Shown here: positions 2,505 to 7,598 of the stretch, piece after piece | Layout: every line of letters starts with the position of its first letter | Numbering within the stretch: position 1 is the first letter of the stretch | Source: Sulfurimonadaceae bacterium | GTDB taxonomy: Bacteria > Campylobacterota > Campylobacteria > Campylobacterales > Sulfurimonadaceae | Reading direction: 5' to 3' | Length of the DNA stretch: 43,068 bases | Assembly (NCBI GenBank): GCA_016744575.1 | Contig: JADGEC010000015.1 | Location: 1-43,068 of the forward strand | Notes under the pieces: model-generated | The model's input: the letters and a program-made list of their open reading frames with translations, nothing else | The model's database searches: none | Told to the model about the DNA's origin: nothing | Made by a program: the position numbers and the translations under genes

Positions 2505-2684
2505 ATGATAAAGAAAGAAGTGACGACAAAGAAGATAGAGAAGAGCGAAGCGCAGAGAGAAGTCGATGTGAAGAAGCGTAGTTTCATGAAAAAGTTTGGA
2601 AAGTATGCGGCAGTGGGAGCGGGAGCGACAGTCTTGATGAAGCCAGGTGCTGCCCTGGCAGGTTCAGATGGTGGTGCACCATAG
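2505..2684 (+). CDS. Short Tat-like / RiPP-precursor-like peptide (59 aa)
   Basis: The ATG is preceded by AAGGA at a 6-nt spacing. The 59-residue product has a highly charged N-terminus (MIKKEVTTKKIEKSEAQ), then KKRSFMKKFGKY, a weakly hydrophobic stretch (AAVGAGATVLMKP) and AxA (AALA) before a short tail GSDGGAP. KRSFMK resembles a twin-arginine signal (RRxFLK with Lys for the first Arg), so it could be a Tat-exported micro-protein. The same leader recurs at 4986-5121 with a different tail. A conserved leader with a variable tail, near a PqqD-like domain and a kinase, is what a modified-peptide precursor would look like. Both readings are inference. The peptide is too short to assign to a family by eye. 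Confidence 0.7.
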   Translation: MIKKEVTTKKIEKSEAQREVDVKKRSFMKKFGKYAAVGAGATVLMKPGAALAGSDGGAP

Positions 2685-2760
2685 ATAGAGGAAAGATAGG
2701 GATGACAGACTGCTTCAGAGCAGTGAAGTCATCGTATCTGTAGAGAAAGAGAGTCCAACC

Positions 2761-2841
2761 ATGACTTTCATAGACAGGTCTTCGTCTTTTAGGCTGAGAC
2801 CTGTATATGAACAGCTTAAAAGTGACGAGATAGATAAATGA
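2761..2841 (+). other. Short ORF or gene remnant encoding FIDRSSS...QLKSDEIDK
   Basis: An ATG at 2761 opens 26 codons whose end, VYEQLKSDEIDK, matches the C-terminus of the lipoprotein encoded at 1982-2443 (HYAQLKSDEIEE), including at DNA level. The frame is open upstream to 2689 (reading RDDRLLQSSEVIVSVEKESP). There is no convincing ribosome binding site. It could be a very small gene or the tail of a lost lipoprotein paralogue. The inverted repeat at 2767-2811 lies inside it. Confidence 0.35.
2767..2811. repeat. Inverted repeat element, copy 1
   Basis: TTCATAGACAGGTCT (2767-2781) and AGACCTGTATATGAA (2797-2811) pair over 14 of 15 positions around a 15-nt loop. A second copy at 5197-5241 has identical outer sequence and a perfect stem. 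Each copy lies about 80 nt after the stop of a Tat-like peptide gene. There is no T-run, so it is not a standard terminator. An RNA hairpin, an operator or a transposition remnant are all possible. Confidence 0.75.
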
Positions 2842-2880
2842 GCGTCTTTAAATATAACGTCTTATGTTACATTAGATGGA

Positions 2881-2886
2881 TATAAT
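2881..2886 (+). promoter_or_regulatory. -10 box (TATAAT) and about 175-nt leader of the PKD lipoprotein gene
   Basis: TATAAT at 2881-2886 would start transcripts near 2893, leaving an untranslated leader of about 175 nt before the ATG at 3067. The leader contains a hairpin-forming stretch (GGTCTCTTAAGAGAGATTACC at about 2981-3001). I cannot identify a known riboswitch in it. Confidence 0.4.
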
Positions 2887-3066
2887 CGCATATCTAGATC
2901 CATTGATCAAAAGGTACGAACACGGACGTCATTCTGCAATAAAAGCCGATCTGTCTGATGAGGGGCAGTACGGAAAACCATGGGTCTCTTAAGAGAGATT
3001 ACCTGGCTGCTTCGGAACGATCTATCTTACGAAATAATTACATTTGACATCAGACGAGGAATAGAG

Positions 3067-4899
3067 ATGATAACAAAAAAGATATTGACTACGATGATCC
3101 TGAGCACGACAGGGGTCTTCTTGGCACTCATCATGAGTGGATGTGGTGATGAGACCACGACGACAAACTACTATGGTGACCCGCAAGAAGAGAGTCAACA
3201 GGGAGCTACTCCGACTGCCGTCATGACAGGACAGTTCCTTGATGATGTCGTAGAGGGACTGGGTTATACCTGTTCATCTGGTAGAGCCGGAACGACGGAT
3301 GCGGATGGTCTCTATACTTGTGATGCCGGAGATGAAGTGAGCTTTTCTGTCGGTGAGCATAGCATCGGAACGGTCCCCGCACAGACACACTTCATCACTC
3401 CTTACTCCTTTTATCCAAATGATGAGGATGCAGCCCTTCGGCTTGCACGAGTACTACAGAGTCTTGATGTGGATGGTGACCCGGAGAACGGTATTGTCAT
3501 CGAGGCAGAGATAGCCACTTTATTGCCCTCTGACTTAGACCTTATGGACCCCTCATCAGAAGCTGCGATCGAGGCTGCATTGGGTATCACTCTGGTCAGT
3601 CGGGAGCAAGCCTATGCACACTTGCATGAGAGTATCGCTGAAGCCAGTGGTGATAGCGAGCAGAACCTCTACATCCCTGAAGCCGATGCTGGAGCAGATC
3701 AGAACACCCATACCGAGTCGACAGTGACGCTCGATGCAAGTCTCAGTACCGATGTGGATGGTAGTCCACTTACTTACCGATGGGAACTAATAGAGCGTCC
3801 AGAGGGTAGTGAAGCAGTATTGTCTGATGATACGGCGGTACGACCGACGTTCGATCCAGATGTCGATGGCTCTTATAGGGTAGAGCTTATCGTCGATGAT
3901 GGTGTCTATGTCAGTCTGCGTATCACAGTCATCATCATCGCGACGACTGCCAATGCTGCTCCGGTAGCAGATGTCGGAGACGACCAGAATGTCCAGACTA
4001 GCTCGCTTGTCTATCTTGATGCTTCCAGAAGCAGTGATGAGGATGGTGATGAGTTGACCTATGCGTGGCGATTTGTCTCCAAACCAGAAGGTAGCCTTGC
4101 AACACTCTCTGATGTGACCGCTATCGATCCGACCTTCGTCACGGATGTGGAGGGTGACTATGTCATCGCCCTTATCGTAGACGATGGTGAGAGTGAGAGC
4201 TCGGCAGATGTGATCGTCGTTACCGCATCCACACTGATCACGTCACCTGTCGCTGAGGCTGGTGAGGCTCAGGATGTAGGTATAGGTGAGATAGTCATAC
4301 TTGATGGACGTTTTAGCGCAGATAGTGATGCTGATCTGATAAGTTATGAATGGAGTCTGATAGCCAGACCTGTAGGAAGTCTTGCGACACTGTCTGCGCC
4401 TACACGGGTGAACCCGACGTTCACAACGGATGTGGAGGGGACTTATGTAGCTCAGCTGATCGTCAGTGACGGTGTCTCTATCAGCCGTGCTGATACGGTC
4501 GTGGTCACTGCACTTAGAGATGAGATCGTCCCATCACCATACCCGACGCCGGATCCTGACCCGCTACCGGTCACGACACCGATCGTCGAGCCAGTACCTG
4601 AAGACCCAGCCGTTGACCCGTACCCAATGCCTACACCGCTCCCTGATCCATATCCTACACCAGACCCTGATCCGAGCATCGATCCGATCTCTGGTCCGGA
4701 TGATGGTGCAACAGGTGAGGACGACCTCCCTATGGTTGACCCTGTAACGGACACAGACCCTGTAGTCGACCCGACACCGACTCCTGTTACTGAACCAGTC
4801 ATCACACCAGTTCCAGATCCTATTACTGTACCGGTGATCATGCCAGTCCCTGATCTTGTCAATGATAATGGAAATGGACATTCAGATTCAGCACCATGA
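3067..4899 (+). CDS. PKD-repeat surface lipoprotein with Pro/Asp-rich tail
   Basis: The start at 3067 follows GAGGA by 6 nt and gives a clean lipoprotein signal (ILSTTGVFLALIMSGC, lipid Cys at residue 26); the longer ORF from 2980 lacks this. The protein is 610 residues. After a linker, residues about 45-200 form a domain seen in many marine bacterial surface proteins (GQFLDDVVEGLGYTC, TTDADGLYTCDAGDEVSFSV, RLARVLQSLDVDGDPENGI). Three PKD-type immunoglobulin-like domains follow (about 202-296, 297-392, 392-487), each with LDASxSxDxDGxxLTYxW-like and TFxxDVxGxYxxxLIVDDG-like motifs. The last 120 residues are a Pro/Asp/Thr-rich stalk (PYPTPDPDPLPV, PDPYPTPDPDPSI). The family acts outside the cell in adhesion or polymer binding. 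The exact ligand is unknown. Confidence 0.85.
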   Translation: MITKKILTTMILSTTGVFLALIMSGCGDETTTTNYYGDPQEESQQGATPTAVMTGQFLDDVVEGLGYTCSSGRAGTTDADGLYTCDAGDEVSFSVGEHSIGTVPAQTHFITPYSFYPNDEDAALRLARVLQSLDVDGDPENGIVIEAEIATLLPSDLDLMDPSSEAAIEAALGITLVSREQAYAHLHESIAEASGDSEQNLYIPEADAGADQNTHTESTVTLDASLSTDVDGSPLTYRWELIERPEGSEAVLSDDTAVRPTFDPDVDGSYRVELIVDDGVYVSLRITVIIIATTANAAPVADVGDDQNVQTSSLVYLDASRSSDEDGDELTYAWRFVSKPEGSLATLSDVTAIDPTFVTDVEGDYVIALIVDDGESESSADVIVVTASTLITSPVAEAGEAQDVGIGEIVILDGRFSADSDADLISYEWSLIARPVGSLATLSAPTRVNPTFTTDVEGTYVAQLIVSDGVSISRADTVVVTALRDEIVPSPYPTPDPDPLPVTTPIVEPVPEDPAVDPYPMPTPLPDPYPTPDPDPSIDPISGPDDGATGEDDLPMVDPVTDTDPVVDPTPTPVTEPVITPVPDPITVPVIMPVPDLVNDNGNGHSDSAP

Positions 4900-4985
4900 C
4901 GCGTAAGGGTGTGCTCAAGTGGTATCTATGCTATGATCTTTTAAGATACGAAATTGCTAAGACCATCTAAAAAAAAGGAACAGAT

Positions 4986-5121
4986 GTGATAAAGAGAGAA
5001 GAGACGACAAAGAAGATGGACAAGACAGAAGAAGCGTAGCTTTATGAAGAAGTTCGGCAAGTATGCCGCCATGGGTACAGGTGCTGTCCTAGCTGATTCT
5101 TCATGGGATCCTAATGCCTAA
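4986..5121 (+). pseudogene. Frameshifted second copy of the Tat-like peptide gene
   Basis: Starting from GTG at 4986 (AAGGA upstream at the same place as in copy 1), the frame reads VIKREETTKKMDKTEEA and stops at TAG 5037-5039. One base out of frame the homology resumes as KRSFMKKFGKYAAMGTGAVL followed by ADSSWDPNA and TAA at 5119-5121. Alignment with the gene at 2505 shows that 23 nt corresponding to GAAGCGCAGAGAGAAGTCG and the next four bases are missing, which shifts the frame by +1. An internal ATG at 5044 could still make a 25-residue peptide without the charged leader. The C-terminal residues differ from copy 1 while the leader is conserved. It is broken unless frameshifting or internal initiation rescues it. 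Confidence 0.7.
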
Positions 5122-5196
5122 GATACGTCAAGAAGTGATGTGTCTTTGCTGACGAGCAGAGCGCGTCATACTATCTATGAGACTTCGGTAAGGATT

Positions 5197-5241
5197 TTCA
5201 TAGACAGGTCTTCATCTCTTAGACGGAGACCTGTCTATGAA
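5197..5241. repeat. Inverted repeat element, copy 2
   Basis: TTCATAGACAGGTCT (5197-5211) and AGACCTGTCTATGAA (5227-5241) are perfectly complementary over 15 bp with a 15-nt loop. It matches copy 1 at 2767-2811; the loops share 11 of 15 bases. It ends 27 nt before the start of the kinase gene, so it lies in that gene's probable 5' leader. In frame it reads FIDRSSSLRRRPVYE, like copy 1. Confidence 0.75.
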
Positions 5242-5268
5242 CCTCGAGAGTATATTATCAGGAGATAG

Positions 5269-6420
5269 ATGTATAGTGATGAGATGATGAGAATACCGCT
5301 GCACTATAAAGAATATGACGCCTACTTAATGGATGAAAGTCTTCTTATCTACTCCAATAAGACAACTCAAGTCTATGGATATGAGAAGGATGATGCCGCT
5401 CTTTTTCTAGAGATCGATGAGTATCTCAGTGAGTATACCCCAGCGCAGGTACTAGAAAAGTTTGTTGACCTTAGCGTTCTAGCAGTAAAGCAGATGATCG
5501 ATCTGGCAAGTGGTAATGAGATAGGCGAAGAGATAGTATCTGAGACACGAAGAGATGAGAGACAGTATTTGACAGAGCAGGTGGTCAGGACTTACTATCG
5601 GTTAAACGATAATCTCTTTGCTATTTACTATCCGAGTGTCGATCTGTATGATCATATCCATCCACTTTTTGAACATATACATGTTGAAGAGATGAGTGGC
5701 TGTAGAGAGGTGTTAGTCGATCTTCTACCGTCTGGCGATATGTGGAAGATACATCTAGATGGTATTGTGGCCGATAAACTGGTCCATCGTGCCCAGTTGG
5801 CGACTTTTGTTCAGGCAAAGATGATGTCAGCTACCTATGAGTCGACTCCTTACCTGATAGCCTTGCATGCGGGTGCTGTGGAACGAGATGGTAAGGTCAT
5901 TGTCATGCCTGCCGCCTCGGGCTCAGGTAAATCGACTTTGACAGCCACTCTGATGCACCATGGTTTTACGCTTTTCAGTGATGAGACTGTGGTACTGGAT
6001 GATGATGGCCATGTCGAACCACTTCCTTTTGGGATGAACATCAAAGAGGGTAGCTGGGATATACTTGCTCCGATGTACCCAGAGCTTGATGATCTAGATA
6101 CGCATAGTCGCTTTGATGGACAGGGTATCCGTTTTCTTTTACCTAAGAAGATGCATCAAGGGACCAGGAAGGCCACGCATATGATATTTCCAAAGTATGT
6201 TCAAGATGCTGAGACAGCATTAATAGCTATTGGTGCTAATGAGGCCTTAGCAAAAATACAAGAAGCCACCTATCAGGTCCAAGAGCGTCTTGACGCCGAT
6301 AAGTTTAGACTTATACTAGAGAAGCTAATAGCCCTACCAAAGTATGCACTTGTCTATTCAGACCTGGATGAGGCGATAGGTGTGATAGATAGACTACTAG
6401 AGAGTGATAAGGAGCGTTGA
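5269..6420 (+). CDS. PqqD-like domain fused to HPr-kinase-like ATPase (HprK-related kinase A type)
   Basis: The protein is 383 residues; AGGAG sits 4 nt before the ATG. Residues about 8-80 look like a PqqD-type winged helix (LLIYSNKTTQVYGYEKDDAA and EYTPAQVLEKFVDLSVLAVK), the fold that binds precursor-peptide leaders in RiPP pathways. Residues about 190-370 are an HprK-like kinase domain: HAGAVERDGKVIVMPAASGS then GKST (P-loop about 216-223), FSDET with a likely catalytic or metal-binding Asp at about 238, and PLPFGMNIKEGSW. Related HprK-like kinases phosphorylate lasso peptides such as paeninodin, and PqqD-like proteins are known beside HprK-related kinase A. The two being fused here is notable. 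The stop overlaps the next start by 4 nt (ATGA), so the nucleotidyltransferase is in the same operon. Phosphorylation of the nearby small peptide is inference. Confidence 0.8.
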   Translation: MYSDEMMRIPLHYKEYDAYLMDESLLIYSNKTTQVYGYEKDDAALFLEIDEYLSEYTPAQVLEKFVDLSVLAVKQMIDLASGNEIGEEIVSETRRDERQYLTEQVVRTYYRLNDNLFAIYYPSVDLYDHIHPLFEHIHVEEMSGCREVLVDLLPSGDMWKIHLDGIVADKLVHRAQLATFVQAKMMSATYESTPYLIALHAGAVERDGKVIVMPAASGSGKSTLTATLMHHGFTLFSDETVVLDDDGHVEPLPFGMNIKEGSWDILAPMYPELDDLDTHSRFDGQGIRFLLPKKMHQGTRKATHMIFPKYVQDAETALIAIGANEALAKIQEATYQVQERLDADKFRLILEKLIALPKYALVYSDLDEAIGVIDRLLESDKER

Positions 6421-7598
6421 TGAGTCCTGTCGGTAAGCTCTCCTCAGATATGTCTTTTGTCCTTCTGGCATGTCAGAGTGAGATGGATGAGAAGCAGATA
6501 GCGGAGTTCAGAGAGCATGTCGAGCGAAGTGATGCACTTGAAGAGGTGGCGATGCTTGCCTATCGTCATGGTGTCTATTCGCTGTTCCATCGAGCTGTGC
6601 TTAGATATTCACCCGACCTGATAGATGAAGAGATGAACGAGGCATTGGATTATCTCGATGATGGTATCAAAGTCAAGAACGAGGGAATGACAGCTGAACT
6701 GCTTAGAGTCATATCACTGCTTGAAGCAGCGGATATTGATGTACTCTCGTTCAAAGGTCCGGTCTTGGCACAGATGCTCTATGGTGATATCGCTCTTCGG
6801 CAGTATGTCGATCTGGACCTGTTGATAAAAAAAGAGGATATTGAGAAGATAGAGACCTTACTGATATCAGAGGGCTATATAGCAGCTTTAGAGTTGACTC
6901 CTGTACAAAAAGAGGTCTGGAAAAAAACTCGACATGATCTTGGTTTCAAGCATCATGAGAAAGGTATTAAGCTGGAGATGCACTGGGCGTTACTCGATGA
7001 TGATTACCCGGTGTCGATAGCGCTCAGTGATGTCTGGAAATATCCACAGAAGGTAAGGATCAATGAACAGAACATCAGTACTTTTTCCATAGAGGAGCTT
7101 TTTTCTTATCTCTGTGTTCATGGTTCCAAACATCTATGGGAGCGACTTGCATGGATAAAGGATATAGACGTCTTTATCCGAACAAAAGAGATAGAATGGG
7201 AGAGTCTGATCAAGAAAGCAGAGAGTTCAAGACTCGAAACGATGATAGAGCTCGGACTTTCACTCTCTTTACTACTATTTAAGACACCTTTACCTAGAGA
7301 GATCGAGAAACGGCTAGAAAAAAATACTCATTTTTACAGTCTCAAAGAGTATGTCATAGCAAGTTGGGAGTCACCTCAAAGTACTTTTAAGCAACATGCA
7401 GCGGTACTTAAGCTATTCCCATCCACACACAAAAAGATATTTTACTTAAATAATATTTTGATCAAGCCATCTTATAAGGAGTTCACCTACATCGATCTTT
7501 CAAAAGGTCTCTATGGGTTCTACTATCTTATACGCCCCTATTTACTTGTGAGGAAGTACCTCTTGTATGCTCTGGGAAAGATGAGGTCTGTAAAATAA
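6417..7598 (+). CDS. Nucleotidyltransferase family protein (NTP_transf_5 type)
   Basis: This 393-residue protein shows the family signature LSFKGPVLAQMLYGDIALRQ followed by YVDLDLLIKKEDI at about residues 109-140. This is the NTP_transf_5 arrangement, with Lys112-Gly113 and a metal-binding DxD at Asp131/Asp133. Further family-like segments are KLEMHWALLDDDYP and HGSKHLWERLAWIKDIDVFI. Such proteins sit beside HprK-related kinases and PqqD-like proteins in peptide-modification and surface-polymer clusters; the transferred group and the acceptor are not established. It overlaps the kinase gene by 4 nt. The C-terminal 60 residues are basic and aromatic (YGFYYLIRPYLLVRKYLLYA) and could touch the membrane. 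No terminator is seen after it; the next gene is convergent. Confidence 0.8.
   Translation: MMSPVGKLSSDMSFVLLACQSEMDEKQIAEFREHVERSDALEEVAMLAYRHGVYSLFHRAVLRYSPDLIDEEMNEALDYLDDGIKVKNEGMTAELLRVISLLEAADIDVLSFKGPVLAQMLYGDIALRQYVDLDLLIKKEDIEKIETLLISEGYIAALELTPVQKEVWKKTRHDLGFKHHEKGIKLEMHWALLDDDYPVSIALSDVWKYPQKVRINEQNISTFSIEELFSYLCVHGSKHLWERLAWIKDIDVFIRTKEIEWESLIKKAESSRLETMIELGLSLSLLLFKTPLPREIEKRLEKNTHFYSLKEYVIASWESPQSTFKQHAAVLKLFPSTHKKIFYLNNILIKPSYKEFTYIDLSKGLYGFYYLIRPYLLVRKYLLYALGKMRSVK

Follow-up and report, generated by a model that had tools for sequence, protein, structure and literature searches.

Here we describe a cassette of three genes, encoding a short precursor peptide, a fusion kinase and a nucleotidyltransferase (NTase), in a 43,068-nucleotide stretch of a Sulfurimonadaceae genome (hereafter the window). 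Judged from its sequence, the cassette is a real, conserved and probably functional peptide-modification unit. Because related marine bacteria and plant-symbiotic rhizobia have the same three genes together, we consider it probable that the cassette specifies a pathway of the ribosomally synthesized and post-translationally modified peptide (RiPP) type, related to the linear polyphosphorylated peptides (LPPs), that would phosphorylate, decorate and export a small peptide. The evidence consists of a conserved leader joined to a variable core, genetic linkage, domain make-up and conserved catalytic residues, together with the predicted topology of a recognition domain.

The peptide, the kinase and the nucleotidyltransferase

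The precursor is a 59-amino-acid open reading frame (2505..2684; MIKKEVTTKKIEKSEAQREVDVKKRSFMKKFGKYAAVGAGATVLMKPGAALAGSDGGAP) with a ribosome-binding-like AAGGAAC upstream. It is followed by a decayed second peptide copy (4984..5121), frameshifted, with internal stops and followable in two frames, by the 383-amino-acid fusion kinase (5269..6420) and by a 392-amino-acid NTase (6420..7598) matching PF14907 (NTP_transf_5) at 183.7 bits, all on the + strand. An earlier note, made from this DNA alone, had listed a peptide, a broken copy of it, a 383-residue kinase with a P-loop and a family-5 NTase, and all of these are present. Its 4-nt overlap between kinase and NTase holds with TTG 6417 as the NTase start; with the ATG at 6420 instead, the kinase stop overlaps the NTase by 1 nt.

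The window peptide divides into a leader (residues 1-52) and a predicted mature core, GSDGGAP. Across 11 Campylobacterota peptides mean pairwise identity is 63% for the leaders and 27% for the cores, and the invariant leader residues include K24, R25, F27, G32, G40, L44 and P47. The divergence of the cores is well illustrated by loci L020 and L021, whose kinases are 82% identical and whose cores have almost nothing in common past SFNSG, while Hydrogenimonas-type cores are often His/Gly-rich (SGSCGHGGHGG...). A short precursor with a conserved leader and a variable core beside modifying enzymes is the arrangement by which a RiPP cassette is recognized. Alignment of the leaders further delimits a Tat-like (twin-arginine translocation-like) motif, KRSFMKK, with KR for RR (2574..2594), and LMKP (2634..2645), in which L44-x-x-P47 fits the W/Y/LxxP recognition class and is a candidate recognition motif; LxxP is reported to be a tolerated variant of the motif bound by the RiPP recognition element (RRE) (PMC12710340). 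In all 11 peptides a signal-peptidase-I-like A-x-A site, with small residues at -3 and -1, stands just ahead of the variable region and is followed within four residues by Ser. In the window this putative site reads ALA/GSD (2652..2669), and Ser54, the sole Ser/Thr of the predicted core, is the predicted phosphorylation site.

The kinase appears to join two domains in one chain, an RRE/PqqD-like region (residues 16-80) and an HprK/PEPCK-like region (residues 196-376). The latter matches the HprK_rel_A profile TIGR04352 at 106 bits, against a family cut-off of 200 bits, and the profile of the SynChlorMet kinase ScmC (TIGR04249) at 24 bits, against a cut-off of 125 bits. The P-loop reads AASGSGKST, and H200, K221 and D238 are conserved and align with the catalytic His-Lys-Asp-Asp (HKDD) set of HprK. 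In an AlphaFold2 model (mean predicted local distance difference test score, pLDDT, 87.5; predicted template-modelling score 0.84) the part beyond the N-terminal domain matches PEPCK and HprK structures. The N-terminal domain itself (5314..5508; pLDDT ~90) is modelled as strands 16-21, 24-29 and 35-39 followed by helices 40-52, 58-64 and 70-80, an order that agrees with that of an RRE at the level of predicted topology. RREs are known for binding leaders. At the equivalent place PF05402 matches full-length homologues encoded on plasmids of Methylobacterium tardum (pMt-1, 36.9 bits) and Ensifer adhaerens (34.4 bits), so that PqqD-kinase fusions also occur on these plasmids, and both proteins can be aligned with the window kinase over their full length (22-23% identity). 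Because of these PF05402 matches, the end-to-end alignment and the predicted topology, we regard the N-terminus as a likely, though unproven, recognition domain.

The NTase retains the invariant residues K112 G113, D131, D133, E186 and H188, and its fold is weakly like those of the nucleotidyl- and phosphotransferases MenT1, LnuA, ANT(2'') and FKRP. MenT1 and TglT are toxins controlled by a kinase, and the likeness of the NTase fold to these two could also suit a toxin-antitoxin or phage-defence pair in which the peptide is a bystander. We regard this as very improbable, given that PADLOC yields no match for the kinase or the peptide and a chance-level DpdK match only for the NTase, that the kinase belongs to the HprK type and has a predicted recognition domain, that the peptide is conserved, and that RiPP clusters with kinase-NTase pairs of this sort are documented. 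A PF14907 gene is found downstream of the kinase in 8/8 Campylobacterota loci whose contig is long enough to test, and the NTases of these loci form sequence groups that are ~20% identical; the gene therefore seems exchangeable, swapped while peptide and kinase stay together. One such pairing is that of L021:4570-5502 with the window NTase (6420-7598), ~20% identical to each other, with partner kinases 50% identical.

Recurrence in Campylobacterota and rhizobia

A second intact cassette, comprising a 73-amino-acid peptide, a kinase and an NTase, lies on another contig (C191) of the same genome. Its kinase is 48% identical to that of the window over the whole length, its NTase 47% and its peptide 48%, and the window peptide alone, used as a query, found this copy independently. 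When 84,980 species genomes were scanned with a pattern-based search that detects close relatives only, six further loci came up, all in Campylobacterota, and relatives gave two more. A peptide with the same leader stands upstream of a full-length kinase in ten of ten Campylobacterota loci, usually by ~16-122 bp, and locus L025 has two tandem precursors. The earlier proposal that peptide, leader-binding-domain kinase and NTase form one conserved unit is borne out by this linkage in ten loci, including the second cassette in the same genome. The outcome that the earlier note had named as refuting it, kinase and NTase genes that are widespread but lack a peptide of this kind in their neighbourhood, was not encountered in Campylobacterota. 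Of 397 Campylobacterota genomes, three have the kinase, and these three alone have the peptide as well; the informative part of this result is the absence from the remaining genomes, because the three helped build the search profiles. Weak matches to the peptide profile in ten other genomes (E 0.002-0.1), most of them in long open frames, were set aside, and the viral contigs searched held no relative. Directly upstream of the peptide, a beta-propeller-like gene (YGDYESSKVFNID...) is conserved in L014, L015, L023, L024 and L025, from Hydrogenimonas and related genomes.

The surroundings of the cassette raise the question of its substrate, as in the window it sits amid genes for TSP3-repeat proteins and a PKD lipoprotein, and L018 and L019 carry such surface genes too. 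Together with the weak match of the PF14907 fold to FKRP, this could indicate that kinase and NTase act on a surface glycan, a lipid carrier or a lipoprotein, the peptide being a small exported accessory. We find this distinctly unlikely: the peptide is conserved between the C191, Hydrogenimonas and window loci and the surface neighbours are not, and the kinase carries a predicted domain of a type whose role is in leader binding.

A wider family has separate kinases. Five further Campylobacterota loci (L018, L019, L073, L074 and L076) combine separate HprK-related kinases with nearby RR-x-F-[LIM]-K-[KR] peptides whose leaders carry the textbook [Y/W]xxPx[L/I] motif; L018 also has a PF05402 PqqD gene and L073 a PF14907 gene, and the RR leader of one relative exceeds the curated TAT-signal cut-off. 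In L076 the lasso cluster is complete, comprising an ATP-binding cassette (ABC) exporter, a Transglut_core3 protease, two HprK-like kinases, an Asn synthase and PqqD; it spans L076:7558-14565 (G300:C1 ~359558-366565), and the leader of its precursor, RRSFLKKAAYAAPALVTLGQLARPSGAYADGSTGPSGPPTDGWTV, is of the Tat-like RR type. Other Tat-like peptides near HprK-related kinases lie at L018:5900-6076, L019:7435-7614 and L019:10928-11110, and an FGxPP motif is common to the peptide cores of L018 and L019 and the C-terminal ends of proteins encoded next to them (GNFGLPPR, GKFGYPPL, DKFGEPPE).

Outside Campylobacterota, Methylobacterium has an RR-leader peptide directly upstream of the fusion kinase, with NTP (nucleoside triphosphate) transferase genes near. 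On rhizobial plasmids the order is kinase, overlapping NTase, then peptide, and the leaders have RR (DRREFLKNCGRFAVVTPPAV... in Sinorhizobium meliloti, ARRNFLLKAGKFASITPPAI... in Ensifer). The set of kinase, NTase and Tat-like peptide is found on a symbiotic megaplasmid at L084:4701-7384 (S. meliloti Ak57 pSymB). Many other leader peptides are scattered with no kinase close by, and two of these sites are on pSymB of S. meliloti 1021.

Relation to known peptide pathways

The closest described systems are the LPPs, reported from the lpp cluster of Paenibacillus alginolyticus and described as Bacillota-restricted (Nat Commun 2026, PMC13381572), which are made by an RRE, an HprK-like kinase and an NTP transferase, with no lasso cyclase (PMC13381572). 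The cassette resembles them in having a recognition domain, an HprK-like kinase (TIGR04352, HprK/PEPCK fold, H-K-D) and an NTP transferase (PF14907) and no macrolactam cyclase, and in having precursors with a constant N-terminus and a highly variable C-terminus. LPPs are phosphorylated on a Ser close to the N-terminal end of the core, for which Ser54 is the predicted counterpart here; leader removal is of the signal-peptidase type in LPPs and is predicted to be so here. The differences are equally clear. The recognition protein is discrete in LPPs and fused to the kinase here; a SipW-like peptidase and an MsbA-like exporter accompany LPPs, whereas no such gene stands beside the present cassettes; the LPP leader motif is YxxPxVLxHQxIxFETxxS, whereas the leaders here are Tat/Sec-signal-like and read KR-x-F-[MI]...LxxP; and the hosts here are Campylobacterota and Alphaproteobacteria. 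By analogy, then, the cassette would work like an LPP pathway, yet it falls outside the LPPs proper as regards the discrete RRE, the linked peptidase and exporter, and the leader motif.

The lasso peptides paeninodin and pseudomycoidin likewise involve an HprK-like Ser kinase, and the pseudomycoidin cluster includes an NTase (PMC9266682), with the modified Ser at the end of the core in lasso peptides and, by prediction, at its start here. A lasso peptide was rejected for the window, since neither an Asn-synthase-like cyclase nor a B2 protease lies beside the window cassette or the fusion-kinase loci; for the window cassette, the earlier note had likewise seen no lasso cyclase or protease. The HPr-rel-A system of NCBIfam (kinase TIGR04352; PqqD family peptide chaperone TIGR04353) shares the kinase family by profile and a PqqD-type partner, but the window kinase falls below the family cut-off and the partner domain is fused here and separate there. 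SynChlorMet shares the HprK-like kinase domain through ScmC, and its other genes were not seen here. No precursor family is named in the libraries searched (NCBIfam and others) for the peptides found here, and no paper describing Tat-like precursors together with an HprK kinase fused to an RRE came up in a search that covered a minor part of the subscription literature. The earlier expectation that the chemistry would be new did not survive, as LPPs made by an RRE, an HprK-like kinase and an NTP transferase were published in 2026 (PMC13381572); because both LPPs and kinase-bearing lasso peptides are known, the chemistry is not wholly new. What is new is a recognition domain and a kinase in one chain, Tat/Sec-like leaders, the absence of a protease and an exporter dedicated to the peptide, and hosts other than Bacillota.

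HprK-like kinases phosphorylate a peptide Ser in both the LPP (PMC13381572) and the pseudomycoidin (PMC9266682) work, and the annotated NTase of pseudomycoidin is linked to hexose on the phosphoserine (PMC9266682). By analogy with LPPs and pseudomycoidin, the window cassette most likely phosphorylates and then decorates Ser54. We infer each of the catalytic and transport steps as follows. Through its N-terminal recognition domain the kinase would bind the conserved leader, perhaps at L44-x-x-P47, and the HprK-like domain of the same chain would phosphorylate the Ser just past the leader (Ser54), possibly repeatedly. The PF14907 enzyme would then put a nucleotidyl or sugar-phosphate group on the phosphoserine; the leader, with a build like that of a Tat or Sec signal peptide, would carry the peptide over the inner membrane, and signal peptidase I would cleave at the A-x-A site.

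Several observations weigh against this route. No dedicated leader protease or transporter adjoins the fusion-kinase cassettes; all 11 fusion-kinase peptides of Campylobacterota depart from the Tat motif RR-x-F-L-K in having KR; and of the canonical recognition motif L44 and P47 alone are retained. In the kinase, the fourth HKDD residue is Glu239, not Asp (Glu in 10/10 Campylobacterota kinases), and Pfam, NCBIfam, PDB profile and hhalign comparisons gave no significant PqqD homology for the N-terminus of the window protein, the hhalign score of 10.9 against a column-shuffle mean of 10.5 being not above background. The PqqD-like N-terminus proposed in the earlier note is supported by predicted topology and through homologues, not by the sequence of the window protein itself. 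The linkage of peptide and kinase is also looser on Sinorhizobium plasmids: 92 plasmid records contain the S. meliloti leader and 23 the kinase (at different E limits), the sampled annotated peptide loci have no kinase near, and most leaders lie far from any kinase detected on the same replicon. This rhizobial collection consisted of plasmids, and the kinases for the scattered peptides, if any, could be chromosomal.

The departure from the Tat motif, together with the modest hydrophobicity of the h-region (grand average of hydropathy 0.75-1.36), also speaks for a different account of the leader, in which the peptide is LPP-like but its head is a cytoplasmic RiPP leader only, the signal-like look is incidental, and an unlinked transporter and protease do the rest. 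That the lasso cluster L076, with the same leader type, has its own ABC exporter and protease agrees with this account. Its chances nonetheless appear small, as the A-x-A-like site just ahead of the variable region is present in every one of the 11 peptides, no fusion-kinase cassette contains a transporter or protease, and relatives have true RR-x-F-[LIM]-K leaders, one of them past the curated TAT-signal cut-off. For the favoured pathway of modification followed by export, Tat transport is plausible, since TatC is encoded in the window genome and relatives have RR; because the motif is KR, Sec or another route is possible as well.

Neighbouring features and implications

Within the window it is the decayed peptide copy that adjoins the kinase; its intact counterpart lies 2.6 kb off, with a PKD-repeat lipoprotein gene (3067-4899) between the two. 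The duplicated DNA holds the decayed copy, including its leader region and a downstream hairpin. This 45-nt hairpin (5197..5241, + strand; 21-nt arms, 90% complementary) stands between the decayed peptide gene and the kinase and is a possible attenuator; its counterpart 3' of the first peptide gene (2767..2811, + strand) matches it at 88% identity across 50 nt (5193-5242 in the second copy). A dispersed repeat was considered and rejected, as the element has only these two copies in the whole genome. Standing after each peptide copy, the hairpins could limit read-through into the kinase gene. Further upstream, two adjoining and closely alike TSP3-repeat surface proteins (33-1118 and 1165-1971) end in NKTICPxGGC. 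The peptide core GSDGGAP (2661-2681) resembles the PKD lipoprotein tail GHSDSAP (4870-4899; compare L019).

More broadly, we tentatively suggest, at somewhat less than even confidence, that Gram-negative bacteria have a widespread class of phosphorylated peptides in which one sequence is both recognition leader and export signal, the kinase binds this signal peptide by its own recognition domain and modifies the peptide before export, and housekeeping Tat/Sec and signal peptidase suffice. If true, these housekeeping components would take over what an exporter and a protease of their own do for other RiPPs, and the signal-peptide-like leader would connect RiPP modification with general protein export in a concrete, testable way. 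Linear phosphopeptide RiPPs would no longer be confined to Bacillota but would also be present, in a minimal three-gene layout, in Campylobacterota and in Alphaproteobacteria, among them Sinorhizobium meliloti, which is amenable to genetics. The fusion of recognition domain and kinase would provide a single enzyme for studying leader-guided phosphorylation, and the very different cores, of 7 residues in the window and His/Gly-rich in Hydrogenimonas, would show the tolerance of the pair.

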